A stretch of 64,000 nucleotides of DNA from Anthopleura xanthogrammica (Eukaryota; Cnidaria; Anthozoa; Actiniaria; Actiniidae), in contig OZ025213.1 in NCBI GenBank assembly GCA_964019055.1, positions 10,226,583 to 10,290,582 on the forward strand, written 5' to 3'. Below the pieces are notes generated by a model, which made no database searches, was not told the DNA's origin, and saw only the letters and a list, made by a program, of their open reading frames with translations. The position numbers and the translations under genes were made by a program. Below, piece by piece: positions 35,276-64,000 of the stretch. Each line of letters starts with the position of its first letter. Position 1 is the stretch's first letter.

Positions 35276-36379
35276 ATGTACTCGAAAAAAGAAAAGGAAA
35301 GCAACTTTGTGGTCCAAATGTACGAGTCAGAGTACCGAAAGATACAAGCTTGGGTTGATAAACACCAGCACGTTGAGACTGGAGGTGATCTGTTTGGTTT
35401 ATGGGCAGACGATCAAAATGCTTTGGTGCAGCTCGTACTTGGACCAGGGACAAATTGCAGACGAACTGGAGCATCTTTCTACCAAGATGTAGACTATCTT
35501 GAGCGTGTGGGTAACAGATTGACGAACGAGGAAGGTTTGTGTCATATTGGAGAATGGCACTCTCATCACAGAATCGGTTTAAAGGAGCCAAGTGGAGGAG
35601 ACGAGAATACAGTCTGGACCAACATGGAAAGATATGGTATCAACCGATTTTTCCTGTTCATAGCAACCATTGAAGGCGGATATCACCGGCATAAAAGAGG
35701 AGTCAAAAATTCGTCGCTTTGTGATGTGGAGGTTCGTTGCTTTCCTTTTAAAATCGATTCAACAACCAGGAAAAGAAAACCAGTTCTGAAAGGCAAAATC
35801 AAGTTTTTGTCAGACGAAAGTCAAAAAAGTCCTTTCCGATTAAAGACAGAACTAGCAAAAGTCCTCGAAGACGGAGCTGAAAGTCAAAACTTATGGAAAG
35901 ATATGAAAAAGTTTGAAATAAAAGGTAGAGAATCCAAAGAAACAACGACAAATAAGAACAAGATAGGCTCAAACAAAGGAAAGGATAATAGTCATTCTCG
36001 GCCTCAAAACAAAGGTCAAACCAAGAAAGCTGAAAGCCGCAGAGAAATATGTAACACAAATGAAACACTAGTTAATGAAGAGGTACAAGAATCCAAGAAG
36101 AAATTTACAAGTAAAGTTTATATCGAACTCTCAAATCAGAAAAAACTGAGGAAAAGCAACGAGGAAAGAGAAAGCCAGGAAAAGAAAGCAAGTGGTATTG
36201 ACTCAAGCAACGATGATCAAGATCATTCAAGCACTCATGTTGATACAGAAAATAATTTCAAAAATCAACTTAGAGAGACCCATGGCCAAAAATATGCCCA
36301 AGGGATTGAAGACACTCAATACAGCAAAAATAAAACCGCACGTACGCGCCGAAATGCAAGAGGAAACAATAAAAAGTAG
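35276..36379 (+). CDS. JAB1: JAB/JAMM isopeptidase with charged tail
   Basis: Single-exon, 367 residues. Residues about 10-165 form a bacterial-type JAB (MPN+) domain. The JAMM zinc site is complete: E34 in VETGGDLFGLW, H95 and H97 in HIGEWHSHH, then S106 and D109 in PSGGD. Such enzymes cut isopeptide or peptide bonds after the C-terminal glycine of a ubiquitin-like protein. The remainder (about 190-367) is Lys/Glu/Asn-rich, low in complexity and probably disordered. It lacks the RWD-like domain of JAB3 and JAB5. Its JAB domain is most like JAB2, with which it lies in tandem. Expected role: processing modifier precursors or deconjugation. The upstream region has six STAT-type palindromes. Confidence 0.85.
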   Translation: MYSKKEKESNFVVQMYESEYRKIQAWVDKHQHVETGGDLFGLWADDQNALVQLVLGPGTNCRRTGASFYQDVDYLERVGNRLTNEEGLCHIGEWHSHHRIGLKEPSGGDENTVWTNMERYGINRFFLFIATIEGGYHRHKRGVKNSSLCDVEVRCFPFKIDSTTRKRKPVLKGKIKFLSDESQKSPFRLKTELAKVLEDGAESQNLWKDMKKFEIKGRESKETTTNKNKIGSNKGKDNSHSRPQNKGQTKKAESRREICNTNETLVNEEVQESKKKFTSKVYIELSNQKKLRKSNEERESQEKKASGIDSSNDDQDHSSTHVDTENNFKNQLRETHGQKYAQGIEDTQYSKNKTARTRRNARGNNKK

Positions 36380-38126
36380 TATCTCAAAAACACTTAGGAT
36401 GTTAAAGGAACAGAAGGAACTGAACTATAACTTGATCAGAGATGAAGAAAAAAAGGACTGATATCATGTTTTTTTCAAAATGAAAAATGTATCATAGACT
36501 TTTTATAATGAAAGATGCATGATCATGTATATCTGTATATATTATAAAAAATATTATTTTAAAAAGCACGAAAATGTTGTGACCAAAAGTCTAGTAATTA
36601 ATGTACAACCCCGTCTGACGTTGACACACCCTGTTGCTTGTTACCCCCTTTATACTTAGATATCCTTGTTTTATTTCCTATGAATAAATGTTGTATTGAT
36701 AAACTTACTTGATCTTTATGTTACTTAGTTTTAGATATAACCTTTAGTCCTAGTTACGTTAAATCATTAGATTTTTACTCGAATTGACACCGATTATATA
36801 AATATTATATTAATACACCGATTATAAAAATGGCGATTCTTCACTTTTCTATTTATACTTTGTCAATCAAATATTTTATCAGTATATCACTTTTACCTGA
36901 AAGAGCATCCAAAAGTGAGTGAACAGGGAAAGTTTCAATGCCGTGGCATTTTTTTAAAGTTATTATATAATGAATATACAGATATAAGTACCAGATTTTG
37001 CTGATAAATTAATACTGCCTCGCTTTGGTGTCATTTACACACTTAAAATTATCCTTTTTTTGTCCCAGATTGTTTTATAAAATCCTTGTTTATACTATCT
37101 ACTTTCCATTGACATGTTTTGCTCTTCTTGAGGCATTAAATTTAGAAAATATGTAAATAAGAAGCGGCAATTTTTCGAATGGGTCTATAGAATTATTAAA
37201 TTACAAATCACCTTGATCCACTAGCCAATCAAAGCTTAGCAATAGTACACAATAGAAATTTGATTGACGTTTTAATTTTTTCTTAGAATTTAACTGATTT
37301 GTGTTAGATGACCTGAGTAATAGTATATATAGAAAATAACTTAGTATGAATTTACACGGGAGATATAACTGAACTGGGGATCGACTACTTGACGGCATCA
37401 ATTACAATTTCATGTAATCGTAAAGAAAGTATCTTAGGTGTGTTAGACTACATTTTCTTCTCTTTTATACGGTGATGGGATAGAAATAAAGATATTTAAA
37501 AGAACTCGAGTTGGTTCATACTAGTAAACAAAATAACAGTGTATTTAGATAGACTTGCTGAAACGCATATTGAGCTCTTTCCTAGAATTGTGTCACCTCG
37601 GATTGACTAATATTAGACCCTATTAGTTTCATAGGTGCTACTGACAAACAGATAATAATAATAATAACCGATAATTATAATAATAATAATAAATAAACTT
37701 TACTAATGATCACTTTTGCAAATAACTAATAGATTCGTAAAAACGCGATATTACAATAATATATTATTCACCACAATACACACTATATACTAGCTATGAA
37801 AAATGAAAGAAGCCAGGGAATTTTCCATGCATCGACGGAGGGGAAATCCCCTGATACCTAATACATTAGTAACAATTAGAAAGGTTTTACAAACTGCAAA
37901 TAAGCACATTCTTTAGTTTGTCACTGGAGCAAATTGCGTTACACGTGACGACTAGAGTTTCCGAGAATTTAGACATTTCTTAGAAAACGCTTTCATGGAA
38001 GAAGATAACTGAATATTTTATTCATGCATGAAGATCAATTCTTGGAATCAATGCCTTGAACAGTAAGGTTTCCAATGAAATAGAAACAAAATATTCGAGG
38101 CTGAATTCATTGAGAAAAGATTCAAG
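36380..38126 (+). promoter_or_regulatory. JAB1-JAB2 intergenic region with JAB2 upstream sites
   Basis: The first 1.4 kb is AT-rich with no gene. Near JAB2 are two NF-kB-type sites, GGGAATTTTCC (37816-37826) and GGGGAAATCCCC (37840-37851), and three STAT-type palindromes, TTCCGAGAA (37959-37967), TTCTTAGAA (37977-37985) and TTCTTGGAA (38039-38047). Confidence 0.5.
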
Positions 38127-39905
38127 ATGGCACCGAGTAAAAATCGAAAGTTTGTAGTCCAGATGTACGAGTCAGAGTACCGTCAGATACAAGGTTGGGT
38201 TGCTAAATACCAAAACCTTGAGACTGGAGGTGATCTGTTTGGTTTATGGGCAGAAGATAACACTACAGTGGTGCAACTCGTACTTGGACCAGGGAAACAC
38301 TGCAGACGATCATCAGTATCCTTCTACCAAGACATAGACTATCTTGAACGAGTGGGTAACATATTGACGACGGAGGAAGGTTTGTGTCATATTGGAGAAT
38401 GGCACTCTCATCACAAACTCGGTTTATCAAGGCCAAGCGGAGGAGACGAGAATACAGTCTGGACTAACATGGATAGATATGGTATCAACCGATTTTTCCT
38501 GTTCATTGCTACCATCGGTTCATCATCTAATGATGTGAACGTTGGTTGCTTCCTTTTTGAAATCAATCCAAATACAAAGAGAAGAGAACCAGTTCTCAAA
38601 GGCGAAATTCATCCATTTGGGAATGAGGAAAGTCCTTTCCGTAAAAGTGTAAAAGATCATCTCGCTGAAGGAGCTGAGTCCCAAAACTCATCAGAATCTC
38701 TGAAGAGATTCAAGTCAAACGTTATTGGAGCTGATTTTGTAAGAGATTCAACAGGCAAACGAGGGCATGATTATCATGAACAAGATCACAAGAAGCCAAA
38801 GCTACAAAACACAGACAATTATGAATGTTATATAACAGTGATAGCCATTGATCAAGAGATGGAAGAACCAAAAAAGGTCGATTATCAGGAAGACAAATCA
38901 GAAGAAATGAAGAATAAAGACACAGAGAAGTCCAAATTAAGCCAAGAGGTAGAAAATCAGGGGAACGAACTTGGTTGCAGTCCTCATGTTGGCCAACAGT
39001 CTAATCTCACAGAAGATGATAACAAACCAGAAACCCTGAAGAATCAACACTCAACTCCAGCGACAACCGAAGAAAATAAATATCCAAGTTCTAGTGCTAA
39101 GTCTAAGCCCTGTAAAGTGAGGTACGAGGGAGGAGAATTCAAGAATACCATAACCCAAGAGAAACATGAAGCCCTGCATGCCGAAGAATCTAAAGATGGA
39201 CAAGCAACCGAAGAAACCAGTTCCAAAAATATCATCCAGAACCCTAAACCCAATACTATTAACGTTAAGCCGGCAAGCGAAGAAAGAAACACAAACCAAG
39301 GCCAGCCCTCCAACGCTTTGGATCGAAATAAAAACACTACAATAGAAGATGCAAGTGAAAAAGGTCCTAAAGATGAGTTAAAAGATGCCCAGCAAAACTA
39401 CATAAAGAAGTCAGGTGCAACGGAAGAAATTAAAAGTGATGAAACGGGAAACGTATTTTCAGTTAAAGATTCAAAATCGGGATACCTTCAGAAAAAGAAA
39501 AAAACAGCTGAAAAGAAGAAAGAAGAGGAAGTGAAAAGGAAAGGAAAGAAGAACAAAGAGAAGGAAGAAAAGGAAAAGGAAAAGAAAGAGAAGAAGAAAG
39601 AAAAGAAAGAGAGCAAAGAAAAGAAGAAGGAAGAGAAAAAGAAAGAAAAGGAAGAGGAGAAGAAAAAAAAGGAAGAGAAGAAGAAAGAAAAGGAAGAGAA
39701 GAAGAAAGAAAAGAAAGAGAGAAAAGAAAAGAAGAAGGAAGAGAAGAAGAGAAAAAAGAAAGAGAGAAAAGAAAAGAAGAACGAAGAGAAGAAGAAAGAA
39801 AAAGGAAGAAAAGAAGAAAGAAAAGAAGAAGAAAAAGACAAGACAGCAAAGAACAAAGGAAAGAAAGAAATCTCAAAAAGCACATTAATGATAACGTCAG
39901 TGTAA
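38127..39905 (+). CDS. JAB2: JAB/JAMM isopeptidase with long Lys/Glu-rich tail
   Basis: Single-exon, 592 residues. The JAB domain (about 8-160) keeps all JAMM ligands: E32 in LETGGDLFGLW, H93 and H95 in GEWHSHH, S104 and D107 in PSGGD. It is close to JAB1 throughout this part. Residues 190-450 are hydrophilic. From about 455 to 585 the sequence is almost pure KEKK/KKEE, which could form a single charged helix. The tail's role is unknown. The segment is coded by AAG/GAA purine runs and is probably length-variable. The role should be removal or maturation of a ubiquitin-like modifier, as for JAB1. Confidence 0.85.
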   Translation: MAPSKNRKFVVQMYESEYRQIQGWVAKYQNLETGGDLFGLWAEDNTTVVQLVLGPGKHCRRSSVSFYQDIDYLERVGNILTTEEGLCHIGEWHSHHKLGLSRPSGGDENTVWTNMDRYGINRFFLFIATIGSSSNDVNVGCFLFEINPNTKRREPVLKGEIHPFGNEESPFRKSVKDHLAEGAESQNSSESLKRFKSNVIGADFVRDSTGKRGHDYHEQDHKKPKLQNTDNYECYITVIAIDQEMEEPKKVDYQEDKSEEMKNKDTEKSKLSQEVENQGNELGCSPHVGQQSNLTEDDNKPETLKNQHSTPATTEENKYPSSSAKSKPCKVRYEGGEFKNTITQEKHEALHAEESKDGQATEETSSKNIIQNPKPNTINVKPASEERNTNQGQPSNALDRNKNTTIEDASEKGPKDELKDAQQNYIKKSGATEEIKSDETGNVFSVKDSKSGYLQKKKKTAEKKKEEEVKRKGKKNKEKEEKEKEKKEKKKEKKESKEKKKEEKKKEKEEEKKKKEEKKKEKEEKKKEKKERKEKKKEEKKRKKKERKEKKNEEKKKEKGRKEERKEEEKDKTAKNKGKKEISKSTLMITSV

Positions 39906-40100
39906 TTGTTTACATTCATATGATTGAATCATTTCAAAAAAATGAACATAAAAAGAAAGCACAAATACATTAACAAAACAGTAAGAAAGGCACATTAATG
40001 ATAACGTCAGTGTAATTGTTTTCATTCATATGATTGAATCATTTCAAAAAAATGAACATAAAAAGAAAGCACAAATACATTAACAAAACAGTAAGAAAGG
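39881..40100. repeat. 110-bp tandem duplication over the JAB2 stop codon
   Basis: Copies 39881-39990 and 39991-40100 are nearly identical. The first contains the last codons of JAB2. The second is 3' UTR and holds a duplicate of the end of the gene. Confidence 0.9.
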
Positions 40101-40754: not shown

Positions 40755-41210
40755 ATGACTTCACAACGCGAAAAAATTGAGAAACATATGGAAAACCCGG
40801 ATAACAGCGAGACTCTGGTGTTCGATTATGCTACAGGCAGACTTGTGGTACAAAATAAATCTGCAGCGACGAGTGAACAAGAAAGACTTGAGGAGCATCT
40901 GTTAAGCCCTGATAAAAAACGAGTCGTAGTACTTGATGATTATACAGGAAAGATCAAAGTAGTAGAGAGAGGTATAGTACAAAATAAATCTGCAGCGACG
41001 AGTGAACAAGAAAGACTTGAGCAGCATCTGTTGAGCCCTGATAAAAATCGAGTTGTAGTACTTGATGATTATACAGGAAAGATCAAAGTAGTAGGGAGAG
41101 CGGCAGCTGAAAGAAATCAAAGTCTACCTGCCGGTCGTCGACAAGTGATGCTAGGTATGCACGATGATGACGGAGGTGGTTTCTTTCTGAAGGGAAGGCA
41201 TGAACATTAA
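40755..41210 (+). CDS. Modifier 1: small repeat protein with GGGFF near the C-terminus
   Basis: 151 residues in one exon. It has three copies of a short unit, about 'EQERLEEHLLSPDKKRVVVL-DDYTGKIKVV'-like in shape. The first reads SETLVFDYATGRLVVQNKS; the second and third are almost identical and encoded by an exact 129-bp (43-codon) DNA duplication. The C-terminal part is RRQVMLG, then an acidic DDD run, GGGFF and seven more residues. I recognise no known fold. The D-x-x-T-G-(K/R) turn between two strands suggests stacked beta hairpins. By its context with E1, E2 and JAB genes and its glycine-containing terminus it is a candidate ubiquitin-like modifier, processed after the glycines by a JAB protein. 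That role is inferred. Confidence 0.7.
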   Translation: MTSQREKIEKHMENPDNSETLVFDYATGRLVVQNKSAATSEQERLEEHLLSPDKKRVVVLDDYTGKIKVVERGIVQNKSAATSEQERLEQHLLSPDKNRVVVLDDYTGKIKVVGRAAAERNQSLPAGRRQVMLGMHDDDGGGFFLKGRHEH

Positions 41211-41878: not shown

Positions 41879-42094
41879 ATGAGTTCACAACGCGAAAAAA
41901 TTGCAAATTTTATGGAAAAACCTGGTAACAGCGAGACTATGGTGTTTGATCCTACTACGGGCAAACTTATGGTACAAAATAAGTCTGCAGCTCAGAGAGA
42001 ACAAGAAAGAGGAGCTGATCGAAAGGTGATGCTGGACATGAACAAACCAGGAGCCGGAGGTTTCTTCTTGTTTTTGCTGTTTGGAAATAAATAA
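41879..42094 (+). CDS. Modifier 2: single-unit small protein ending GAGGFF plus tail
   Basis: 71 residues from the ATG at 41879. I chose it over the in-frame ATG at 41837 because the context AAGTACAAAATGA-TTCACAACGCG is shared with modifier 1. It has one hairpin unit (SETMVFDPTTGKLMVQNKS), a charged linker (REQERGADRK), then VMLDMNKPGAGGFF and a nine-residue hydrophobic extension. It is almost identical to modifier 5 up to GGFF and unrelated after it. The point where constraint stops suggests maturation there. Function inferred from context only. Confidence 0.7.
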   Translation: MSSQREKIANFMEKPGNSETMVFDPTTGKLMVQNKSAAQREQERGADRKVMLDMNKPGAGGFFLFLLFGNK

Positions 42095-43044: not shown

Positions 43045-43485
43045 ATGTCAAGTGACGACTTTGATTTTGACCCAGAAACGTGTAAACTTGTACCAAAAAA
43101 CTTGATGAGGGATGAAGGGAAAGTAAGGAATCGTGAAGATTATTATAGGGAAAGACTACCTGAGATGGACTTTGACCCTGGCCAATCAAGGGTTGTTCCA
43201 AAAACCTTTAACAAGAGAGCCATAATTCATGACACCAGCGAATTCTCTTATAAGAATGGCGAGGAATTTGAGTTTGATGGAGCTTCAAGTCGACTCGTAT
43301 TGAAATCACAAAGTCCAAACATAGAGAAATTCTTGGAGCATCCAAATAGCAGTGAGACAATGGTGTTTGATCCAGTGATCGGAAAATTGACGGTGCGGCA
43401 GAAATCGACTGTGAGAACACGAGATGATGATCGAAGAGTCATGTTGGATATGAACAGACAAGGCCCTGGTGGCTTCTTCCTCTAG
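43045..43485 (+). CDS. Modifier 3: four-unit small protein ending GPGGFFL
   Basis: 146 residues in one exon. Four diverged units are centred on FDFDPETCKLVPK, MDFDPGQSRVVPK, FEFDGASSRLVLK and MVFDPVIGKLTVRQ, followed by RRVMLDMNRQGPGGFFL and stop. Only one residue follows GGFF. The repeat pattern F-D-P-x-x-G/S-K/R-L-V-P-K is the same as in modifier 4. Short hydrophilic linkers separate the units. No match to ubiquitin in sequence. It is probably a chain of beta hairpins, analogous in idea to the multi-domain ubiquitin-like proteins of bacteria. Role inferred from the cluster. Confidence 0.7.
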   Translation: MSSDDFDFDPETCKLVPKNLMRDEGKVRNREDYYRERLPEMDFDPGQSRVVPKTFNKRAIIHDTSEFSYKNGEEFEFDGASSRLVLKSQSPNIEKFLEHPNSSETMVFDPVIGKLTVRQKSTVRTRDDDRRVMLDMNRQGPGGFFL

Positions 43486-44256: not shown

Positions 44257-45561
44257 TCACTTCTCATCATCTGATGAGTCTGTCTCTTCTTCGGCCTCCT
44301 CCAGTAAGCAGTCCTCGCATTTCACACCTGATGATGGATCTGCATACCAACGAAGAACCGAACTCTCATCAAAACAATTTAGACCACCTTCTTGATAGTC
44401 TAGGTATGGTGCTTCACAGCGATTGGCCCAAACGTAGTACGGGTATTGAAAATCACTTTCCAATGAGGCCAGGGCGCTATCTTCTCCCTTGCATAGTTCC
44501 ACAAGAGCTATTTTCACGATCATATTACTGATAGGGATGATGTCTGATGAAAGTCCCACTTGGATGGTTGCCTCTAATTCGCTATCGGTCACATAGCTTG
44601 GCGCACCTTCTCGAGCCTGACGCATTGATGATATTTCTTCATTATTAGTCCCTGTTCCACAGACACACATGAAGCATGGTGGGCCTTGTTTGGGTCGTAC
44701 CACAATAACCTCTCCTCCAGCAGCTCGTACTGCACATTTCCCATACAATGTCACTATTTTTAACTCAAGAGAGATCATGTTGATGGTACCACGACTCGCT
44801 GACGTATCTGTTGCTGCGACTATCAGATCACATCCTTTCAATATTTCCATTCCTTTCTTTGGGTCGTTGATGTCACAGTTGTGAAGTTCAACATTAGCGA
44901 ATGGATTCTTGTCCAAGATGCGTTCACGAATGGCTTTGGTCTTCAATCTTCCAAGATCACTTACTCCACAAGTGTGGCGTACAATGTTGTTCAGTTCAAT
45001 GCGATCATAGTCAACAAGAACAAAGTTGCCCACTCCAGCTTTGGCTAACTCGATTGCAACGTGAGATCCACCGCTACCGAGTCCAACAATAGCTACCTTT
45101 CGACTCTCTAGCAAACCAGACTCCAATAATCCTTTACTTCTCGAGTACAGCAGGTCTTTTGAGGGTTGAAGTAGTACTTTGGTTTCTTTAGGCACGTCAC
45201 TTGACGTCTTCTTTGTATATGCCTTGATTTGGTTGTCAGAGGTGATCAGTAACGCGATCTGAACGGAGCTACTCTCTTCTAGCTTCTTAAATGCTGTTTG
45301 AACGAGCGCTAGCTCAGTCGTTCCCTGTTCTTCCTTAGGAAAACTTTCTATCACCTCGTAGACGACTTGCTTATCTACTGTGTCGGGATGCTCAGATGAT
45401 GATGATGATGATACAATAATATCTAAAACATCTCCATCATCGATTGACGTGACTGTAAAATACTTTCTCTCTTTTCTGCTGTCATTCTTCTCTCTTATTA
45501 TCTCAATAAAATCCGGTTGCAACAAACGCAAAACAAGATCTTCAGCTTGATGTAGATCCAT
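44257..45561 (-). CDS. E1-a: ThiF-type E1-like activating enzyme
   Basis: 434 residues in one exon. An N-terminal region (1-145) leads, through YSRSKGLLESGLLESRK, to the ThiF/Rossmann domain. This has G-L-G-S-G-G at 160-165 (ATP loop), VDYDRIELNNIVRH at 183-196, GRLKTKA, AATD, and YGKCAVRAAGGEV. Zinc ligands are C296/C299 (CFMC) and C415/C418 (CEDC). ILRWY-type and VWANR motifs near the end recall bacterial ThiF proteins linked to E2 and JAB genes. The enzyme should adenylate the C-terminal glycine of a modifier and pass it to the E2. The acidic C-terminal tail (EEAEEETDSSDDEK) is unlike E1-b. Long central stretches are almost identical to E1-b. Confidence 0.85.
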   Translation of the reverse strand: MDLHQAEDLVLRLLQPDFIEIIREKNDSRKERKYFTVTSIDDGDVLDIIVSSSSSSEHPDTVDKQVVYEVIESFPKEEQGTTELALVQTAFKKLEESSSVQIALLITSDNQIKAYTKKTSSDVPKETKVLLQPSKDLLYSRSKGLLESGLLESRKVAIVGLGSGGSHVAIELAKAGVGNFVLVDYDRIELNNIVRHTCGVSDLGRLKTKAIRERILDKNPFANVELHNCDINDPKKGMEILKGCDLIVAATDTSASRGTINMISLELKIVTLYGKCAVRAAGGEVIVVRPKQGPPCFMCVCGTGTNNEEISSMRQAREGAPSYVTDSELEATIQVGLSSDIIPISNMIVKIALVELCKGEDSALASLESDFQYPYYVWANRCEAPYLDYQEGGLNCFDESSVLRWYADPSSGVKCEDCLLEEAEEETDSSDDEK

Positions 45562-46346: not shown

Positions 46347-46787
46347 ATGGGGAGTTTTCATGAAAATATGGATCAGTTTGACTTCGATCCAGCAGAAGCA
46401 AAATTTTCACCAAAATCTTTTGAAACTGGTTTCTCTGGGATGTCGTCGGAACAACTCTACGGATCTGGCGCAGAACGTGAATATGATCCATCACAATCGA
46501 AATTGGTTCCAAAAACATCAAGGTACCAAACTGGCTGCACTTCAACAGCCGAACAAGCTTACAAGAATGGTCAGGAGTTTGATTTCGACCCGGCCTCCGG
46601 TCGTCTGTTATTCAAGCAAGAACCTGTCCACGAAGTCGAAGAACAGATGAGAAATCCATCATCAGACAAACATTTAGGGTTCGATAAGAAAAAGAAATGT
46701 ATAAAAGTAGAGAAACAAACCAAACCACGAAGGGACAGAGAAGTGAAGGTCGATATGAACAAAAGAGGAACAGGAGGATTTTTTTAA
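46347..46787 (+). CDS. Modifier 4: four-unit small protein ending GTGGFF
   Basis: 146 residues from the ATG at 46347. The frame is open further upstream, but that part reads through promoter-like sequence and has no relatives. Units centre on FDFDPAEAKFSPK, EYDPSQSKLVPK, FDFDPASGRLLFK and a decayed GFDKKKKCIKVE. The end is VKVDMNKRGTGGFF with the stop directly after FF. It is therefore a form with no extension, needing little or no trimming if FF is the terminus, or loss of FF if glycine is. TTCTTGGAA at 46282-46290 and GGGAAATTCCC at 46158 lie upstream. Confidence 0.7.
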   Translation: MGSFHENMDQFDFDPAEAKFSPKSFETGFSGMSSEQLYGSGAEREYDPSQSKLVPKTSRYQTGCTSTAEQAYKNGQEFDFDPASGRLLFKQEPVHEVEEQMRNPSSDKHLGFDKKKKCIKVEKQTKPRRDREVKVDMNKRGTGGFF

Positions 46788-48405: not shown

Positions 48406-48618
48406 ATGAGTTCTCAACGACAAAAAATTGAGAAACATATGGAAAATCCTGATAAAAGTGAGACTATGGTCTTCGATCCTGCTACAGGGACGCTTATGGT
48501 ACAAAATAAATCTGCAGCACAGAGAGAACAAGAAAGAGGAGCCGATCGAAAGGTGATGCTGGACATGAACAAACCAGGAGCGGGAGGTTTCTTTTCGATA
48601 CTATTTGACATGGTTTGA
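48406..48618 (+). CDS. Modifier 5: single-unit small protein ending GAGGFF plus tail
   Basis: 70 residues from the ATG at 48406. I chose it because MSSQRQKIEKHMENP aligns with the starts of modifiers 1 and 2; an in-frame ATG at 48373 adds 11 residues. Contents are one unit (SETMVFDPATGTLMVQNKS), REQERGADRK, VMLDMNKPGAGGFF, then SILFDMV. Identity with modifier 2 is nearly total from the hairpin to GGFF and absent beyond it. Expected to be trimmed by one of the JAB enzymes if it acts as a modifier. Confidence 0.7.
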   Translation: MSSQRQKIEKHMENPDKSETMVFDPATGTLMVQNKSAAQREQERGADRKVMLDMNKPGAGGFFSILFDMV

Positions 48619-49212: not shown

Positions 49213-49461
49213 ATGGGTTGTTATAAAGAGGGAAATTTCGAACAAAACTTGAAGATGTGTTCGCAAGAAAATCTTAAATCAAGACAAGAGTTCGATGACG
49301 AGATGAGAGGAAAAACAAAAAAGGGTTTCATCTTCGATCCATCGACAGGAATATTAGGACTGGCTGAGGAAAAGACAAGACAAGAAAAAGTAGTAAGACC
49401 TCAACCAGTCAAAAAAGTAGCTGTTCCAATAAAGACTCGAGGAACTGGTGGACATTTTTAG
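49213..49461 (+). CDS. Modifier 6: diverged small protein ending GTGGHF
   Basis: 82 residues in one exon. It has a single hairpin unit (KGFIFDPSTGILGLAE) with a longer charged N-terminus and a basic linker, then VAVPIKTRGTGGHF and stop. It keeps F-D-P-S-T-G and the terminal GTGG but has H in place of the first F. It is the most diverged member that still ends with glycines. No extension follows HF. Confidence 0.6.
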   Translation: MGCYKEGNFEQNLKMCSQENLKSRQEFDDEMRGKTKKGFIFDPSTGILGLAEEKTRQEKVVRPQPVKKVAVPIKTRGTGGHF

Positions 49462-50462: not shown

Positions 50463-51746
50463 TTATCCAAAAAAGGAAGTGTTCTCTAAGTTGGTCTCGA
50501 TTGGTTGGCAAACATTACATTTGTCATCTCTCTTGACTTCCATCGAATACCAACGCAGAATACTCGGAGTGTTAAACTTGTTAAAACCATCTTCTGGGTA
50601 TCCCGCATACTGTCCATCCCTTCGGTTTGCCCAAATGTAGTATGCATTCTCAAAATCCTTCTCCAATGAGGCCAGGGCGCTGTCTTTTCCCTTGCATAGT
50701 TCCACGAGAGCTATTTTCACGATCATATTACTGATAGGGATGATGTCTGATGAGAGTCCCACTTGGATGGTTGCTTCTACCTCACTATCTGGCACATAGC
50801 TGGGGTTAGCTTCTCGGGCTTGGCGGAAAGAGGACACCTCTTCCTTGTCAGCTTCGACAAGAGCATTTCGATACACACAACTGAAGCACGGACCCTGGTT
50901 GGGACGCACTACAACCACTTCTCCTCCGGCAGCTCGTACTGCACATTTCCCATACAAAACAGGAATGTTAAGCTCAAGGGAAAGTGAGTTGATGTTGAGT
51001 CGGCTACGGATGTTGTCTGTAGCTGCAACAATCAGGTTACATTCTTTGAAAATGTCCCTTCCTTTCTCTTGGTCATTGATGTCACAGTTGTGAAGTTCAA
51101 CATTAGCGAATGGGTTCTTGTCCAAGATGCGGTCACGAATGGCTTTGGTCTTCAATCTTCCAAGATCACTTACTCCACAAGTGTGGCGTACAATGTTGTT
51201 CAGTTCAATGCGATCATAGTCAACAAGAACAAATTTGCCCACTCCAGCTTTGGCCAACTCGATTGCAACGTGAGATCCGCCGCTACCGAGTCCAACAATA
51301 GCAACCTTTCGACTCTCTAGCAAACCAGACTCCAATAATCCTTTACTTCTCGAGTACAGCAGGTCTTTTGAGGGTTGAAGTAGTACTTTGGTTTCTTTAG
51401 GCACGTCACTTGACGTCTTCTTTGTATATGCCTTGATTTGGTTGTCAGAGGTGATCAGTAACGCGATCTGAACGGAGCTACTCTCTTCTAGCTTCTTGAA
51501 TGCTGTTTGAACGAGCTCAGTCGTTTCTTGCTCTTCCTTAGGAAAGCTTTCTATCAAATCGTAGGCGACTTGGTTTTGGCATGCATCTTGTCCTCCAGGA
51601 ATAGCTCGCACCGTGACATGCAAGGCATCACCATCATCGAGTGACTTGACAAAGAAATGCTTTGAATCTTGATCTTCTTTCTTTCTCAATATTTCAATGA
51701 AGTCTGGTTGAATCAAACACACAACGAGATCGTCTGGTTGATGCAT
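50463..51746 (-). CDS. E1-b: ThiF-type E1-like activating enzyme
   Basis: 427 residues in one exon, with the same plan as E1-a. G-L-G-S-G-G is at 152-157, VDYDRIELNNIVRH follows, then AATDNIRSRLN, YGKCAVRAAGGEV, and the zinc ligands CFSC (C287/C290) and CNVC (C410/C413). The N-terminal 70 and the C-terminal 100 residues differ clearly from E1-a, and it lacks the acidic tail, ending ENTSFFG. Having two E1s suggests separate modifier preferences, since the modifiers also vary. It is intronless. The upstream region has repeated STAT-type and kB-type palindromes. Confidence 0.85.
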   Translation of the reverse strand: MHQPDDLVVCLIQPDFIEILRKKEDQDSKHFFVKSLDDGDALHVTVRAIPGGQDACQNQVAYDLIESFPKEEQETTELVQTAFKKLEESSSVQIALLITSDNQIKAYTKKTSSDVPKETKVLLQPSKDLLYSRSKGLLESGLLESRKVAIVGLGSGGSHVAIELAKAGVGKFVLVDYDRIELNNIVRHTCGVSDLGRLKTKAIRDRILDKNPFANVELHNCDINDQEKGRDIFKECNLIVAATDNIRSRLNINSLSLELNIPVLYGKCAVRAAGGEVVVVRPNQGPCFSCVYRNALVEADKEEVSSFRQAREANPSYVPDSEVEATIQVGLSSDIIPISNMIVKIALVELCKGKDSALASLEKDFENAYYIWANRRDGQYAGYPEDGFNKFNTPSILRWYSMEVKRDDKCNVCQPIETNLENTSFFG

Positions 51747-52695: not shown

Positions 52696-53799
52696 CTACG
52701 GCGAATCGTTAACGCTCAGCCGGTTTTGAAGTAATTTGAATACTACATCTAAAAATTCGTCTAATTTGAATGATTGAATCGTGGTGCACCCGCGCAAAAA
52801 AATGAGGTCTAGAAATTTCTTGTTCACCGTGAGACTTGCCGAAAACGATGGAAAGCTGCTTGAAAAACTTATGGAAACTTCATGATGGTCATGATAAACA
52901 AATGTCATGTTCATGTCTTTGGGATAGTTTTCATCAAAAGTTATTTCTATTTTTCCCACACGTTCACTCAATCCACAGTAAATATCTTTGATTACTGCAT
53001 GATTCTCCTTGTTTGAGTACCACTGGAAACTGCTATATGAGGGCAACGTGACACGGTATACCGTGGATGTTTGGGACATATCCCTTGCACTTGCACTTGT
53101 ACCTGGACTTGAAGAGTTGGAAAATAATGTTCTACCTTCGTAGCTCTCCACAGGTTCTTGACCGAAAATTAGATTAACCACTTTGTCCTTTATATCATCC
53201 AGAAAGGATTTTTGTTTGTGCACCTCCTTCTCTAATTCATTTCTTGGTGCAACCACCTTTTCGGCTTCCTTTCCTTTTTCCAATTCTAGAGAAATATCGC
53301 GTATAAGGCTGAAAGGACTTTTTATACTTATCTCTTCAACATAACCAGATCTACAGCGCCTTGAATTTTCTTTGAAAATGTATGGGGAAAAGCTAACTTG
53401 ATCTTTACTGACAATGTTTGCAATCATAAGGAAAAAGCCACATGAACCTTGTGGAAAATTTCTCTGTATTGTACTACAGTCTCCTTCGCTGGGTCTATCA
53501 AGCTTTAGCTGATGGTGCGAGTGCCATTCACCGATGTGCCCAAGCATGTAGTTTTCTGTTAGAAGGCTGCCTACTTTCTCCAGATAGTTTACATCTTGGT
53601 AGAAATGATAATCACCGTGTGTGCAGCCTCGACCAGGACCAAGAAGAACATGAATGACTGCGTTGTCTTCTTCACCGGACCACAAGCCAAACAAGTCACC
53701 TCCAGTCTCATTATTTGGGTACTGTAAAACCCATTGCTTCATGTTCTCTAAATCTTGCTGGAACATGTAAAGGACAAAATGGTTCCCTTTACTCGACAT
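52696..53799 (-). CDS. JAB3: JAB/JAMM isopeptidase fused to an RWD-like domain
   Basis: 367 residues in one exon. The JAB domain (about 7-150) has all ligands: E31 in NETGGDLFGLW, H93 and H95 in HIGEWHSHH, S104 and D107 in PSEGD. A linker rich in charge and Ser follows (170-255). The C-terminal domain (about 258-360) starts FQWYSNKENH and has the E2/RWD-like strand pattern with a double proline-like turn (VSISFSSSFPSFSASL), but no catalytic Cys. The variant DC-T-QRN after the JAMM motif pairs it with JAB5 rather than JAB1/2. It is likely a deconjugase recruited by its RWD-like part. A STAT-type TTCCAAGAA lies 125 bp upstream (53923-53931). Confidence 0.8.
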   Translation of the reverse strand: MSSKGNHFVLYMFQQDLENMKQWVLQYPNNETGGDLFGLWSGEEDNAVIHVLLGPGRGCTHGDYHFYQDVNYLEKVGSLLTENYMLGHIGEWHSHHQLKLDRPSEGDCSTIQRNFPQGSCGFFLMIANIVSKDQVSFSPYIFKENSRRCRSGYVEEISIKSPFSLIRDISLELEKGKEAEKVVAPRNELEKEVHKQKSFLDDIKDKVVNLIFGQEPVESYEGRTLFSNSSSPGTSASARDMSQTSTVYRVTLPSYSSFQWYSNKENHAVIKDIYCGLSERVGKIEITFDENYPKDMNMTFVYHDHHEVSISFSSSFPSFSASLTVNKKFLDLIFLRGCTTIQSFKLDEFLDVVFKLLQNRLSVNDSP

Positions 53800-54725: not shown

Positions 54726-55913
54726 TTAATAGGAGCACCTACTTCCACAATAGGGCCTGGCACCATAATTCGGACACCGCACACATTTGCTTTGCAATGT
54801 AGATTCCAGTTCAGCCTTAAAAATATCAATGTCCTCTGACCCTTTTACGGAGTAAGAGTAGATCGTTTCCGCCGACCGAAACTGCTTCTTCTTAAGATTC
54901 ACAGTCCCCGTTGGAAAGTCAGAGGGAAAGTGAATTGCCCAGTTATAGTTATGATGTGTGAATGTTATGGTCATTTCCAGTGTTGTCTTATCCCTTGACA
55001 TATTTACTGTTTTCTGGTCACCTGCCAGTGAAGTCAGTACAAAATCAAAGATTTTTTTGAAGGCATCTGGTCGTGTGTCATACCATTGAGCTTTCAAGTT
55101 GTGTTCCGAAACATTCTCGCTTTTTTGTTCTTTGAATCTTTCTTTTGAACTTGGAAATAATTCACAGTGAGAGGTAATGAGGGTGCCTTTAGTTGACGTC
55201 TGATCAGTTACTTTTGACCAATTGCCTTGGATGCCTTGCTTGGTAACAGATGCATAACTGGTAGATTCTTGTGGATTCCTTATTGCTGTTGAAGTCGGGC
55301 TTATCTTTGACTCGGCTTTGTTGAATGCCTCAAATTTATTACAGAGTGATGACACCTGTCCTTTAGTCATTCTTTCTTTTGGTGCGTTTGCTGTTTCATT
55401 ATGTGAAATGTTTGGCAATCTATATGGATTTTTACCTTGCAGTTGTTCAATTCTTCCGTTTTCAACCTTTTGTCCTTCCTTTATGAAAAGGAGTGGATGA
55501 GAGGCGAAGCGGTCTTGATTAATCTTTTCCACTGAGAGGAAAACAAACTTTTGCGGTATAGTGGATGTGTTCTGCTTAGACTTTATATCTTGCCGACCGT
55601 CTTCTGTAAATTGTTCGAAGGACCAATAACCAAAAAAATTAAAAAATGGAATTTCTATTGGATTTTCAAACTGGAGATTTTTGAGAAAAAGGTATTCAGC
55701 AGGAATGTCATCATCGCAAATAATGTGGCAAACAGGATTCAGTGTGTTGGTCAAAAGGCCCAACATGTAACCTCCACTTGGTCGCTTGCTAGGAGAAGAC
55801 GCTTCTGCAGCCCACTTCTCAATCATCTCCAAGTCCTCTTCGAACATGTAAAGAGTAAATTCATCATCTTCTCCTAACGAACGTGTGTTTTTTTTACTAC
55901 TAGTCAAAGACAT
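54726..55913 (-). CDS. JAB4: catalytically dead JAB-like protein with RWD-like domain
   Basis: 395 residues from the ATG at 55913; the open frame upstream of this has no ATG. The N-terminus aligns with the other JABs (FTLYMFEEDLEMIEKWA), but the catalytic ETGGDLFGL is PSGGYMLGL and the HxH segment is lost, replaced by sequence around FFGYWSFEQF. No JAMM site remains. In contrast the C-terminal domain (about 280-370) is well kept (WYDTRPDAF, WAIHFPSDFPTGTVNLKK) and ends in a Cys-rich tail (CVRCPNYGARPYCGSRCSY). I infer a regulatory or binding role, like inactive MPN- proteins of proteasome and COP9 complexes. STAT-type sites at 56008-56016 and 56067-56075 lie upstream. Confidence 0.7.
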   Translation of the reverse strand: MSLTSSKKNTRSLGEDDEFTLYMFEEDLEMIEKWAAEASSPSKRPSGGYMLGLLTNTLNPVCHIICDDDIPAEYLFLKNLQFENPIEIPFFNFFGYWSFEQFTEDGRQDIKSKQNTSTIPQKFVFLSVEKINQDRFASHPLLFIKEGQKVENGRIEQLQGKNPYRLPNISHNETANAPKERMTKGQVSSLCNKFEAFNKAESKISPTSTAIRNPQESTSYASVTKQGIQGNWSKVTDQTSTKGTLITSHCELFPSSKERFKEQKSENVSEHNLKAQWYDTRPDAFKKIFDFVLTSLAGDQKTVNMSRDKTTLEMTITFTHHNYNWAIHFPSDFPTGTVNLKKKQFRSAETIYSYSVKGSEDIDIFKAELESTLQSKCVRCPNYGARPYCGSRCSY

Positions 55914-56274: not shown

Positions 56275-56305
<31 letters not shown>

Positions 56306-56508: not shown

Positions 56509-56793
56509 TCAAAAATATCCCTGTGCAGCCATCTTGGTCATTACTGGATTCCTGTTTCCTGTGTCAGCAATCTTTGACTTAGATACAGTAAGTTTACCAG
56601 TCTTAATGTCAAAGACAAGTTCCTCTTGATTTGCTGTCGAACCGTGTGATTCATAAGACAGCAATCTGGTCAACGAATCAATATCTTCTTCACTATGATT
56701 TGATCTGGTATCATCTTCTCTATCTTCGTTTCTTCTAATGTAAGCAACTTTCAAACTTCGTCCAGAATCTGGTGGGACATTCTTGTTTTCCAT
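56509..56793 (-). CDS. Modifier 7: outlying small protein ending AAQGYF
   Basis: 94 residues from the ATG at 56793; the codon at 56799 is not ATG. An acidic/Ser-rich N-terminus precedes one hairpin unit (EELVFDIKTGKLTVSKSK), then a linker and PVMTKMAAQGYF with the stop. The hairpin and the M-x-K/D-M spacing to the end match the other modifiers, but only one glycine remains and the end is GYF. It lies head-to-head with the E2 gene, 585 bp away. It may be a modifier that depends on one glycine or an accessory paralogue that can no longer be conjugated. Confidence 0.55.
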   Translation of the reverse strand: MENKNVPPDSGRSLKVAYIRRNEDREDDTRSNHSEEDIDSLTRLLSYESHGSTANQEELVFDIKTGKLTVSKSKIADTGNRNPVMTKMAAQGYF

Positions 56794-57378: not shown

Positions 57379-57822
57379 ATGCCTTGGTCAGGAACTCAGA
57401 GAACAAGACTAGCCACGGAGAAAGAAATTCTGGAAACCTACTTTAGAGAGAGAGTAAGCTGGAATAACCCGACAAGTGACACGAGTGTTGAAGTCAAGAT
57501 GACTACAAGCAATGACCATCATTATACATTGAGAATATATCTTCCAGGTGACTACCCGAACTCGTGTCCTGAACTGACTGTTTCTTCACCACAAACACTT
57601 AAACGATTCAATGGAACGGTATTGAATGGTTCTGCTTCAACAATGGATCATACCTTAGGAGTAAAAAATGGACTTATGAAAATATGCCATTTTGTACCCG
57701 GAAGATGGACGGCTGAGTTCACGATGTACCAAGTGTTCATGAAAGGTTTGCTGTGGTTAGAAGCGTACGAATCACACCTGAGAACGGGAAAGTCACTGGC
57801 TACTTATCTAAGAGAAATGTAA
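57379..57822 (+). CDS. Prokaryote-type E2 ubiquitin-conjugating enzyme
   Basis: 147 residues in one exon, a minimal UBC-fold length. An N-terminal helix (RLATEKEILETYFRER) is followed by strands, the E2 signature turn in RIYLPGDYPNSCPELTV (residues about 52-68), then H91, and the probable catalytic Cys C103 in GLMKICHF. Next comes W109 and a long C-terminal helical part (YQVFMKGLLWLEAYESHL-x-TGKSL). There is no canonical HPN tripeptide. The H-x11-C-H-F and W...WLEAYE arrangement is what I associate with bacterial E2-like proteins found beside ThiF and JAB genes, not with animal UBE2 enzymes. It should take a modifier from E1-a/E1-b by thioester transfer. It is the only E2 in the window, and no E3 is evident. 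Confidence 0.8.
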   Translation: MPWSGTQRTRLATEKEILETYFRERVSWNNPTSDTSVEVKMTTSNDHHYTLRIYLPGDYPNSCPELTVSSPQTLKRFNGTVLNGSASTMDHTLGVKNGLMKICHFVPGRWTAEFTMYQVFMKGLLWLEAYESHLRTGKSLATYLREM

Positions 57823-59309: not shown

Positions 59310-61070
59310 ATGACTCTATATCCACGAGGCCGAACTACGAACTTCCAACCTCGAAGTACAGATTTCACATTATGTATCTTTAATGAAGACTTCATTCATA
59401 TCGGAAAGCTAGTGAGCAAAATACCGTATGCGGAAACTGGAGGGAACCTTTTTGGCTTGTGGACAAATCAAGGCAATGCTGTTGTTCTTGTTGCTACGGG
59501 ACCTGGTAAGAACTGTAAACGAAGCTCTGCATCGTTCTACCAAGATATACCGTACATGCAGCGAGTCGGTAATATGCTCACTGGTGAATATCCGTTGTGC
59601 CACATAGGCGAGTGGCACTCTCATCACCAAATGCAGCTCTATCAGCCAAGCTTTGGGGATTGTAATACAGTGCAACGAAACTATCCAACAGGATCTCAGG
59701 GATTTGTTCTCATGATTGCAAATATCCTTCAAAATGGCAAAGTGAAACTTTCACCTTACAAATTTACGGACGAGAGATCTCCTTATCAAAAAGGAGACAT
59801 CGAAGTTATAAGCGTGGAAAATCCATTCATGAAGGTTATCCAGATAACTAGCAATATCAAGAACGGTGAAGAGGTGAAGATATCACAGCAGAGTTGCCAA
59901 GAAACGCTGACAGAGAAATATCCGTGTCTTCCAGCTGAAAAACAGATTGTCGAGGACATGAATCCAAAAAGAAATCATCATCCTAGTCCTCCCAGTAATC
60001 GGCGATCAGGTACTCCAAGCAAAAAGCCTAAGAGATCATCATCACCTGAAGGACAAAAAGAACAAGATGAACACCAACCAAGACACATTCCTCGCCCTCC
60101 TTCACAGCGAAAGGAAGAGTATAAGCCGTCCCCAAAGAGAGCTAGTGGAATTTTCGGAGCCATAGTGCCACCATCACAAAGTACTATGCCATTCAGAACA
60201 GAAAAGCTACAAGAAACTACCCATTCACACAGGTCATTCACACAAGCAGGAAGAAGTCCCTCTGCGGCAAGACATTTGACCGCAAATCCACAAGAAAGAA
60301 CCCAGGTACAGACTCAGTTGTGGTACAAAGTACGACCAGATGCCTTAAGAACAATGTATGATTTTTTAACTTCACTGGCAGATGACCAGGAAACAGTTAA
60401 CATGTCAAGGGATAAGACAACACTAAACATGACCATGGAATTTACACATCACATTTATGAATGGTCAATTGAATTTCCCTCTGACTTTCCAAGGGGATCT
60501 GTAAATCTTAAGAAGAGGTTTGGGTTTCATGAGGATACTTACCCTGTACAAGGGCGAGGGGACATTGAGAGTTTCAAAACAAAATTAAAGTCAACACTAG
60601 AAAAGGAATGCACAACATGTTGGCATAGGCACCAAAGTCTCCCTGCGAGGAACCAAACCGCGAATCGTCAAGAAAGATCTCAGCTGGTACAGACTGACGA
60701 GGATATATCGCGTAACAGCCACACGAGCAAATGGTACGAAACACGACCAGATGCCTTAAGAACAACTTTGGATTTCGTATCTTCACTGGCTGATGACCAG
60801 AAGACAGTTAACGTATCGAGGAATAAGACAACATTTAACATAACCATGGAATTTACACATCATATTTATAAATGGTCAATTGAGTTTCCCTCTGACTTTC
60901 CAAGGGGATCTGTAAATCTTAAGAAGAGTATTGGGTTTTATGATGATACTTACCCTGTAGAAGACCTAGGGGACATTGAGAGTTTTAAGACAAAATTGAA
61001 ATCCACACTTCAAAAGAAATGCACAAGATGTGGTCCTAGGAGTAACGCAAGGTATAGCTTTTCTTATTGA
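59310..61070 (+). CDS. JAB5: JAB/JAMM isopeptidase with two RWD-like domains
   Basis: 586 residues from the ATG at 59310; the open frame starts ten codons earlier on a TTG. The JAB domain (about 18-150) keeps E42 (AETGGNLFGLW), H103 and H105 (HIGEWHSHH), S114 and D117 (PSFGD). A Pro/Ser/Lys-rich linker (about 210-330) follows. Two tandem copies of the RWD/UBC-like domain follow (WY-x-x-RPDALRT...WSIEFPSDFPRGSVNLKK), each ended by a CxxC (ECTTC, KCTRC). The copies are highly similar, so the repeat is recent. The domain resembles half an E2 without catalytic Cys and probably binds the E2, a modifier or a substrate. It is the longest JAB protein with the most elaborate upstream array. Confidence 0.85.
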   Translation: MTLYPRGRTTNFQPRSTDFTLCIFNEDFIHIGKLVSKIPYAETGGNLFGLWTNQGNAVVLVATGPGKNCKRSSASFYQDIPYMQRVGNMLTGEYPLCHIGEWHSHHQMQLYQPSFGDCNTVQRNYPTGSQGFVLMIANILQNGKVKLSPYKFTDERSPYQKGDIEVISVENPFMKVIQITSNIKNGEEVKISQQSCQETLTEKYPCLPAEKQIVEDMNPKRNHHPSPPSNRRSGTPSKKPKRSSSPEGQKEQDEHQPRHIPRPPSQRKEEYKPSPKRASGIFGAIVPPSQSTMPFRTEKLQETTHSHRSFTQAGRSPSAARHLTANPQERTQVQTQLWYKVRPDALRTMYDFLTSLADDQETVNMSRDKTTLNMTMEFTHHIYEWSIEFPSDFPRGSVNLKKRFGFHEDTYPVQGRGDIESFKTKLKSTLEKECTTCWHRHQSLPARNQTANRQERSQLVQTDEDISRNSHTSKWYETRPDALRTTLDFVSSLADDQKTVNVSRNKTTFNITMEFTHHIYKWSIEFPSDFPRGSVNLKKSIGFYDDTYPVEDLGDIESFKTKLKSTLQKKCTRCGPRSNARYSFSY

Positions 61071-61814: not shown

Positions 61815-63085
61815 ATGTCGAAAACTGTGACGACTATTACCATTCATCGCGGAGAGCTACTGCAGATCAAGAGAATAATAATAAGAGACAAGAAAAGTAA
61901 GAATCTTAAGGGCAGATTATATGGACTCTACACCGAATCAGATCAGCCAGTTGTACTGATAGTATGTGGTGGTGTTAAAAATACGAAGAAAATAGACGAC
62001 TATTTATGGGAAAAGCATAAACTGTTGCCACTCGGGGAATGGATCGTGAGTATCGTACCAAATTCCAAGAAAGGTAATTGTTTTTTATTAAAGGATAAGA
62101 ATTGGATGCATTGTACTTGTTCATGTGCTATATATTTCTATATAGCTGGTTATTATTTGTGTTATAGTGTGCGACCGAAGATCTGGTTTTCTTTGCAGTC
62201 TTCTTCTTCTTAGTCGAACATTTTATATTTGTATTTGTACTTGCAGATCAAAGAGATTCAAACATTACTGTGACATTTGACAATGAAGGGGAAATTGTCA
62301 TTGCACATTTCAGAGGCAAGGAGGCTAATCGAGGTGAGTAGTTACTGCGGATTCTTGGTACAGTTAGTACAGTTTGCATTACACATGTTGGGACTATGCA
62401 TACACAGTATGTCACGGCTTTGCATTATGTCACGCGTGTAAGGCTGAATATTGAAATATTCTTGCTTCTTAATTTTGCATCTAAATAAAGGTAGATAAGA
62501 AGTATCGTACAGGTTTTCGAGGAGTACAGTAGTATTATAGTCAGTAATCTGATAGACTTTTACTTTTTATTCTTAGATGTTATTGAAGGTCAAAGTGCTT
62601 TTCGTGAGTGCCAGAGCCTAACAAAGTACCTACAAGATAAAACAAATTTAGACAGCTCGCCAATAAAAATAGAAGAAAAACAAATGCCATCAGAACATCA
62701 GCCACCTGGGACTGACGATGTATCGTGCTGTACTCGCACATCTCAGTGGTACAACACTGATCGAGATACCTTCCAGAACACCTTTAATTTTGTGCGTAGT
62801 ACCTTTCCAGATGATGGGATGGTCGAGGTGTCTCGAAACACTTCAACAGAAGACATATCCTTCAAGTTCAACCATTCTCAGTTCTCTTGGGTTATTGAAT
62901 TCCCTGCAGAATTTCCTAGTGGTAATGTTATACTGAAAAGGATTAGGGGTAGCGAGGAAAACGTATTACCATTGCAGCAACACACAGCAAATTTAGCAAA
63001 CACGAAGAATATGTTAAGAGAGAATTTTTTTAACATGTGTAAGTGTCAAAAGTGTTTTAGTCGAGAACCGCAAAGTTGGGTGTAA
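61815..63085 (+). CDS. Pseudo-JAB 6: JAB-like domain without JAMM residues plus RWD-like domain, three exons
   Basis: Exons 61815-62073, 62247-62333 and 62577-63085 join in frame with phase 1 GT-AG introns to give 284 residues. The first 100 residues follow the JAB pattern but with LKGRLYGLYT in place of ETGGDLFGLW and LPLGEWIVSI in place of CHIGEWHSHH, so Glu and both His are gone. The C-terminal domain (WYNTDRDTFQNTFNF...WVIEFPAEFPSGNVILKR) matches those of JAB4 and JAB5 and ends in CKCQKCF. Unlike the active JABs it has introns. It is a probable non-catalytic partner or reader. Confidence 0.7.
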
Positions 63086-63648
63086 TGACATAAGGAAGAT
63101 CGTTTTTGACGGTAGGAATTAAATAATCAATGAAAATAATATTCAATTCATTTATTGCGTGACAAGGAATCTTAATATGAGGACATGAATAGACTAACTA
63201 GACCCCACAATAACCTCCCACAATAAGATATTTCCTTCAAAAATACATAAATAAAAAAGAAAATGTGGAATCTCAATAAAGAAAAACTTACTCTCAGTTG
63301 CATTAATAAAAACATTACAAAAACAACCGTTGTGTGTGTTACAATTTTTTTAAATGTATTTTCTTTAAACATGCTAACGTAGCAGTTTCACTTTCGATGG
63401 TGCATGTATTATCAAGCACAGATTCCTGGAAGAAGGAAGGAATGACGGAAGTAAGACCGGTTTGTCTAGTTTACCTGTCAATCAAAATCGGACTCATTTC
63501 CGAGAATCCGATTGAATTCTGCAAACAGACGATTATCCAGCAACCAGAAGGACTGGAGAGGGAAAATTTACTATTGATTCAGGTCGTTGTCGTGGTTTAG
63601 TTGATATATATTACGAGATTACATTATCTAGGAAGTCTAAAGGCAAGA
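63086..63648 (+). promoter_or_regulatory. Upstream region of pseudo-JAB 7
   Basis: STAT-type sites TTCCTGGAA (63423-63431) and TTCCGAGAA (63498-63506) lie 140-230 bp before the ATG at 63649. No kB-type site seen. Confidence 0.45.
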
Positions 63649-64000
63649 ATGGCACCCATCATCACAGTACACCGAGGTGAGCTCCTTCAGATCAAGAGAA
63701 TGATCGAGAAAGGTAAAGGTAAAAACAAAGGCAAAGGCAAAGGCAAAGGGGATCTAAGAGGAGATATCTATGGGCTACGAACCGAGTCTCGACAACCAGT
63801 CATACAATTCGTTTGTGGCCAAAATGATAAAGCACAGACAGATATGTTACGGAATGGTCATGGACTGCTGAAGCTTGGGGAGTGGGTTGTACAGCCGCTT
63901 CCCGAGAGAAGTAAGTTTTTTCATAATTTAACTATGCGCCAAGCTACAGAAAGAAATAGTAATGGAAATTTCATTGAAATATGTTTGTAGCATTGTCGCT
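63649..64000 (+). CDS. Pseudo-JAB 7 (partial, runs off the window)
   Basis: Exon 1 is 63649-63910 with a GTAAGT donor and the same phase 1 junction as pseudo-JAB 6. It encodes ITVHRGELLQIKRMIEKG, a GKGKGKG-rich loop (coded by an AAAGGC repeat), LRGDIYGLRTES in place of the catalytic ETGG segment, and LLKLGEWVVQPL in place of the HxH segment. All JAMM ligands are absent. Later exons, expected to include the RWD-like domain, lie beyond position 64000. It is a tandem paralogue of pseudo-JAB 6. Confidence 0.65.

Follow-up and report, generated by a model that had tools for sequence, protein, structure and literature searches.

Can an animal chromosome hold a complete ubiquitin-like conjugation system of bacterial make-up, and where would such a system have come from? 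The question is raised by a 64,000-nucleotide stretch of the sea anemone Anthopleura xanthogrammica genome (C8:10226583-10290582, hereafter the window), which belongs to a 14.8-Mb contig; the genome comprises 290 Mb in 125 contigs. Between 35 and 64 kb of the window, a span of 29 kb, there are two ThiF-type E1 frames, one E2, seven JAB frames and seven small proteins, the candidate modifiers. This inventory, drawn up in an initial annotation of the sequence, is correct as judged by Pfam matches, JAMM patterns and profiles. Our reading, to which we give a probability of about 0.8, is that a four-part bacterial operon was acquired horizontally long ago and duplicated in the animal, where it would form a conjugation cascade. 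A matching bacterial operon, a shared domain architecture and three trees agree with the annotation's proposal that a complete conjugation system of bacterial type was taken up and then enlarged here. The cluster, most of whose genes are single open frames, extends about 3.3 kb beyond the end of the window and comprises the following features.

35276..36379, + strand: JAB-1, full JAMM pattern, long charged tail
38127..39905, + strand: JAB-2, full JAMM pattern, Lys/Glu-rich tail
40755..41210, + strand: modifier M1, about three hairpin units, end GGGFFLKGRHEH; bacterial modifier profile E 2.4e-4
41879..42094, + strand: modifier M2, end GAGGFF, then a tail; profile E 5.7e-6
43045..43485 (frame 43015), + strand: modifier M3, four hairpin units, end GPGGFFL; profile E 2.9e-5
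44257..45561 (open frame 44257-45582), - strand: E1-a, Pfam ThiF 2.9e-30; placed by tree
46347..46787 (frame 46158), + strand: modifier M4, four hairpin-like units, end GTGGFF; resembles M3 (7.2e-21)
48406..48618, + strand: modifier M5, end GAGGFF, tail different from that of M2; profile E 1.5e-5; DNA compared with M2
49213..49461, + strand: modifier M6, end GTGGHF; profile E 5.1e-4
50463..51746 (open frame 50463-51761), - strand: E1-b, Pfam ThiF 6.4e-36; placed by relatives and tree
52696..53799, - strand: JAB-3, full JAMM pattern, C-terminal RWD-like domain (profile 1.3e-7)
54726..55913, - strand: JAB-like frame without JAMM pattern, RWD-like domain kept (1.4e-5); JAB profile 1.3e-6
56509..56793, - strand: modifier M7, end QGYF; profile E 9.8e-6
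57379..57822 (open frame 57286-57822), + strand: E2 with invariant Cys and His, Pfam RWD 3.9e-6; bacterial E2 profile 9.8e-53; placed by tree
59310..61070, + strand: JAB-4, full JAMM pattern, two RWD-like domains (6e-5, 5.8e-4)
61815..62213 (frame from 61812), + strand: JAB-like frame without JAMM pattern, probable first exon (an exon reading inferred from the frames); JAB profile 6.6e-5
62495..63085, + strand: RWD-like frame, probable second exon of the 61815 gene; profiles 1.1e-8, 0.0041
63649..63990 (frame from 63601), + strand: JAB-like frame without JAMM pattern; JAB profile 0.013; an RWD-like frame follows beyond the window

Four JAB frames thus carry the full JAMM pattern and three do not. 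The latter had been described as dead relatives; the absence of the pattern was borne out, but two of them (61812-62213 and 63601-63990) look like first exons ahead of an E2-like (RWD) exon. The RWD-like frame just beyond the window (L123:1788-3842, + strand) carries a long DEPPTGQEKPPS-type repeat.

The bacterial operon family

We scanned bacteria, one genome per species, and examined the best 80 of 140 loci, 70 of which hold a strong E1 relative. E2 and JAB genes accompany the E1 in 63 of these 70 loci, and 47 of the 63 also hold a modifier detected by profile; two of the 70 have an E2 without a JAB and five have neither, some of them on short contigs. The typical gene order is JAB-E2-modifier-E1, and three Actinomycete loci are arranged modifier-E1-JAB-E2. 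Of the loci lacking a profile match we inspected 13 (12 of the 16 that have all three enzymes, and L055), and each holds a small open reading frame (ORF) between E2 and E1, ending in an aromatic pair in 11 loci, in GYA in one and in GW in one. The modifier forms the N-terminal part of the E1 in 9/70 loci, in 23/120 listed E1s (by motif) and on a Bradyrhizobium plasmid (by eye). Phyla represented in our trees include Cyanobacteriota, Bacteroidota, Caldisericota, Actinomycetota and Planctomycetota, and the cyanobacterial JABs of the family carry an RWD-like C-terminus.

The E1, E2, JAB and modifier of this operon, found in Microcoleus, Spirulina, Bacteroidales and others, are homologous to those of the anemone, which shares with the family the E1 clade, the E2 motif, a JAB with JAMM pattern and the modifier motif (6 of 7 modifiers by profile). 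Unlike the bacterial genes, those of the anemone are scattered over both strands and duplicated, with multi-unit modifiers and GG before FF. We found no prior description of the JAB-E2-modifier-E1 family in the literature covered, which is weak evidence of absence, as preprints and most subscription papers lie outside that coverage.

A ClpA/ClpB-like double AAA+ gene (assigned for three proteins by Pfam scan and for the remainder by similarity) lies directly after the E1 or at most 292 bases downstream of it in 19/70 loci, mostly Bacteroidales, and in four flavobacterial-type loci a different AAA+ protein is encoded at a distance of 8-493 bases. Two loci hold a PtuA-like ATPase of Septu. An NB-ARC NTPase lies near seven cyanobacterial loci, adjoining the JAB in four and beyond the E1 in one, and the Bradyrhizobium plasmid copy adjoins a double-stranded DNA nuclease and a TIR gene. 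Because the neighbours are a Clp-like unfoldase, PtuA, NB-ARC and TIR proteins, protein removal or defence is suggested, and tag-directed unfolding and defence is the likeliest bacterial role. Pup and its proteasome likewise use a short tag, of about 60 residues, and an AAA+ unfoldase, a likeness to the short modifier with an AAA+ gene nearby in some bacteria; Pup uses its own ligase type and not E1 and E2, unlike the system here.

Two further kinds of gene lie behind the bacterial operon. A convergent J-domain-like gene (by eye) stands behind the E1 in ten Caldiserica/Cryosericum-type loci (L023, L024, L026, L027, L029, L031, L032, L050, L076 and L077) and may be shared synteny. Elsewhere the genes behind the operon (L034:7251-8033, L053:7298-7735, L035:7230-7949 and L043:7246-8001) open, as judged by eye, with a motif resembling that of the modifier (such as FNPQTGEF); some of these appear membrane-bound, and they are possible partners or substrates. 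As to carriers, none of 19 pattern matches in viral contigs was confirmed, phage records gave one half-length match at 33% identity, and we rejected a viral carrier. A plasmid carrier was likewise rejected; two Bradyrhizobium plasmid records were found.

Enzymes and modifiers

Each E1 has one ThiF domain and is about 430 residues long. E1-b is 45-56% identical to named cyanobacterial E1s over 68-92% of its length, and matches UBA5 only at E 1.4e-14, over the ThiF core. As a catalytic residue of the E1 we rejected Cys190, which is present in at least 46 of 72 sequences (a lower bound, some matches falling on an earlier N-terminal site) and is replaced by other residues in several gut-bacterial E1s. 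An aromatic-F/A pair (SFFG, NIFA), like the modifier end, occurs near the C-terminus of 98 of 120 listed E1s (P0001-P0120) and also in window 50463.

The candidate catalytic Cys proposed for the E2 is invariant: Cys104 and His92 are present in 26/26 aligned rows, six of them from the anemone genome. The E2 has an ICH-type Cys motif with H92, as in the bacterial operon family; the invariant His lies 12 residues before the Cys, and no Glu/His set follows the Cys in the alignment. The full JAMM pattern is found in the four JABs of the cluster, in three elsewhere in the genome and in 58/61 bacterial JABs. A profile built from eight bacterial JABs detects an RWD-like domain in JAB-3, JAB-4 (two copies), one motif-less JAB and bacterial JABs, and does not match JAB-1 or JAB-2; over 47 columns this domain can be aligned with the E2 family (probability 84.5%). 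Among 15 paralogue pairs, the nine that returned a ratio of nonsynonymous to synonymous substitution rates (dN/dS) all had a value below 1 (range 0.13-0.73), with 0.13 for M2/M5, 0.34 for E1-a/b and up to 0.73 for recent E2 pairs.

Glycine pairs had been noted near the C-terminus of six of the seven small proteins. We confirm them, and find that each is followed by F-F or H-F; the seventh protein ends QGYF. Our modifier profile was built from 33 standalone bacterial modifiers and zero animal sequences, an earlier profile having been swamped by E1-fused copies. At E<=5e-4 it matches 8 of 2751 ORFs from the window and nine other of the anemone's own stretches; six of the eight belong to this cluster (E about 6e-6 to 5e-4) and two to a second cluster. 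The best match among reversed or shuffled decoy ORFs was E 0.82, so the matches exceed chance. The modifiers have in common a hairpin-like LVFDPxTGxLxV and an end G-F/Y/H-F/A. Among 120 listed of 271 further relatives, a list biased toward the typical form, the end is DGFF in 84, DGFA in 35 and EGFA in one, followed by 0-8 residues (17 in one) without fixed sequence. By eye, M3 and M4 consist of four hairpin-like units and M1 of three, each with a single C-terminal end. The scanned modifiers had no accepted match in the copies of Pfam and NCBIfam searched or in the PDB, and no ubiquitin-family match. One bacterial modifier (L049:5642-5965) has two tandem units and ends DIFGG.

Copies, trees and alternative origins

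Copies elsewhere in the genome were counted from open frames only, so the counts are lower bounds. The E1 has at least two places, both in this cluster. Of at least 12 E2 places, one lies here and eight belong to a second cluster at C8:14.57-14.58 Mb, on the same chromosome, where one copy is broken by an internal stop; C10 has two and C4 has one. The JAB has at least seven: four here, two in the second cluster and one on C6. Genome searches with M3 and M1 gave modifier places in this cluster only; the two further modifiers found by the bacterial profile are both in the second cluster. Two E2s of the second cluster (L112:5738-6376 and L112:7975-8529, both - strand) end CCVM and a JAB there (L113:2959-4041, + strand) ends CAMI. 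These CaaX-like ends could be membrane anchors; as a conserved anchor the end was rejected, with 0/120 listed E2 relatives ending so. Within the window, upstream of the cluster, an open frame at 27862-29403 (- strand) resembles by eye a rhodopsin-type G-protein-coupled receptor, which fits an animal chromosome, and a tandem repeat of about 28 residues (AVLAQRLxKMGRGAISVCGSHFGLITFS) at 31150-31851 is open on both strands.

We built trees of the E1 (53 rows), the E2 (47 rows, 16 animal) and the JAB (37 rows, six animal, all from the anemone genome). In the E1 tree, ten cnidarian-type rows (support 99/96) are sister to a set of five that includes the sponge Oscarella (100/99; Oscarella is the one organism named among these, and one other is a EukProt entry). 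Together they form a single clade (100/100), which has a long stem and contains no bacterial rows. This clade sits in a group with cyanobacteria and actinomycetes (100/96), within which its split from the cyanobacterial side is weak (88/53). The animal rows also form a single clade within a bacterial radiation in the E2 tree (100/98) and the JAB tree (98/98), where the fork joining them to cyanobacteria and actinomycetes is not resolved. The best named matches of E1-b are the sea anemone Actinostola among animals and cyanobacteria outside them. Seven named animals carry an E1 (Actinostola, Desmophyllum pertusum, Dendronephthya gigantea and Oscarella lobularis) or an E2 (Actinia tenebrosa, Exaiptasia diaphana and Oculina patagonica), some on contigs of more than 2 Mb. 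Contrary to what had first been supposed, the acquisition is not local to this species: its E1 type occurs in corals, in a soft coral and in a sponge too. The simplest reading of the trees would be one operon transfer before the sponge/cnidarian split, and the transfer is probably old because coral and sponge E1s belong to the animal clade.

The weakly resolved sister group of the animal E1 clade (88/53) speaks for sponges and cnidarians having received the genes separately, from related bacteria, but the sister relation of the cnidarian and sponge-type rows on one long stem free of bacterial rows makes this history unlikely. Nor do we see more than a vanishingly small chance that the genes are bacterial contamination or an assembly error: most of the genes are single open frames, yet the window lies inside a large contig, further copies are on C4, C6 and C10, and the same genes occur in other animals. 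Descent from ordinary animal genes of UBA5, UBE2 and BRCC36 type that have diverged is barely conceivable. The superfamilies are the same, and UBA5 is among the best solved-structure relatives of the E1; by search scores, however, the proteins are far closer to those of the bacterial operon than to UBA5 and fall outside the UBA5, UBE2 and BRCC36 families, animal rows of which are absent from all three trees. JAB-3 has no PDB match below E 0.06, and no animal family explains the modifiers or the shared JAB-RWD layout.

The Bil antiphage system, to which the initial annotation likened the locus, also places modifier, E1, E2 and JAB together, and its transfer into an animal would supply the same four kinds of part. 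It differs from the anemone system in E1 layout and E2 motif and probably in its modifier, a comparison made against an excerpted description (PMC11354881). As described there, the Bil E1 has an inactive and an active adenylation domain and a Cys domain, the Bil E2 has a CEHH motif, and BilA has two beta-grasp domains. The anemone E1s have a single ThiF domain each, the 26-row E2 alignment lacks CEHH behind the catalytic Cys and places the His before it, and the modifiers have no ubiquitin-family sequence match. A Bil origin is thus very improbable, and the nearest relatives belong to a different bacterial operon family, for which we found no name. It is also quite unlikely that a peptide-modifying pathway, with MccB- or PaaA-like E1 chemistry on the C-terminus, acts on the small proteins as its substrates without joining them to other proteins. 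The E1 does match the MccB (1.1e-12) and PaaA (1.3e-8) structures, and the modifiers are short and lack a ubiquitin-family match, but a dedicated E2 with an invariant Cys and a JAB stand beside the E1 in 63/70 loci, and the AAA+ unfoldases by 19 loci fit protein tagging better.

Among other known systems, CBASS Cap2 and Cap3 have a related E1 and JAB (PADLOC profiles 3.1e-31 and 1.3e-16). In Cap2, which conjugates cGAS, E1 and E2 form one protein, whereas the anemone and bacterial loci encode E1, E2 and a short modifier as separate frames; no cGAS-like gene was noted among ten operon neighbours scanned, in which no search aimed at cGAS was made. Operon types 6a-6e of Iyer 2006 are prokaryotic E1, E2-like and JAB gene sets, with RWD-like inactive E2 domains in 6e; none, in the portion of that account available (PMC1779556), combines a short modifier of the kind found here with a free-standing Cys E2 and a JAB bearing RWD at its C-terminus. 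Other prokaryotic ubiquitin-like systems are described in PMC7159879.

A possible conjugation pathway

The homology of each part, the operons, the active-site residues, the tree positions and the dN/dS values are observations; conjugation itself, with its cleavage site, transfer and targets, is inferred, and the pathway would operate apart from ubiquitin. The JAB would trim the extension behind the modifier's conserved G-aromatic end, and the E1 would adenylate the newly exposed C-terminus. The E2 would accept the modifier on its invariant Cys and hand it to targets, and the JAB would also take it off again; the RWD-like domains on some JABs may be docking parts. That the JAB cuts so as to expose a C-terminus at G-F-F or immediately after it is suggested because unconserved residues follow the conserved modifier end beside a JAB, because modifiers are fused ahead of E1 and because M2/M5 identity drops after GFF: their DNA is identical at 58/60 positions just upstream of the final GFF codons, and at 31/60, 19/60 and 25/60 in the next blocks. 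CBASS provides a tested precedent for JAB cleavage and for conjugation of a protein that is not beta-grasp, in that Cap2, as described in PMC10097602, conjugates cGAS, which has no beta-grasp fold, via the Gly or Ala at the cGAS C-terminus, and fusions of this kind are cut by Cap3, a JAB.

Several observations weigh on the other side. The aligned E1s have no family-universal Cys outside the two CxxC pairs, so an E1 thioester is unsure; the E2 may take the modifier straight from the adenylate, or a CxxC Cys of the E1 may serve. The drop in M2/M5 identity could also mark a duplication breakpoint. M4 (frame 46158) is not found by the bacterial modifier profile (E 4.9), its tie to the modifiers being solely its likeness to its neighbour M3. 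Not all aromatic ends are preceded by glycine, several gut-bacterial small ORFs ending KKDYY or TKPYY, and 6 of the 15 dN/dS pairs failed numerically.

A bolder proposal goes further. Early animals may have taken up the complete operon, and living ones may use it to this day next to ubiquitin; its short modifier would lack the beta-grasp fold and would have multiplied in the anemone to multi-unit GG-FF forms. In gut bacteria a Clp-type unfoldase would read the same tag, an independent analogue of the ubiquitin-proteasome route. We put this forward tentatively, at somewhat below even odds, because of the non-glycine ends in gut bacteria. In the animal, the cascade may serve cell-autonomous defence or protein quality control.

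An active system would give living animals a second tagging pathway, independent of ubiquitin and running beside it, that was gained from bacteria as a cooperating gene set and that occurs, at least in part, in a soft coral and a sponge as well as in anemones and stony corals. A multi-gene conjugation cascade could then cross domains and be tamed, and Exaiptasia, with its matching E2, is an animal suited to testing this. The locus also draws attention to a system that is widespread in bacteria and whose modifier is absent from the copies of Pfam and NCBIfam that were searched.

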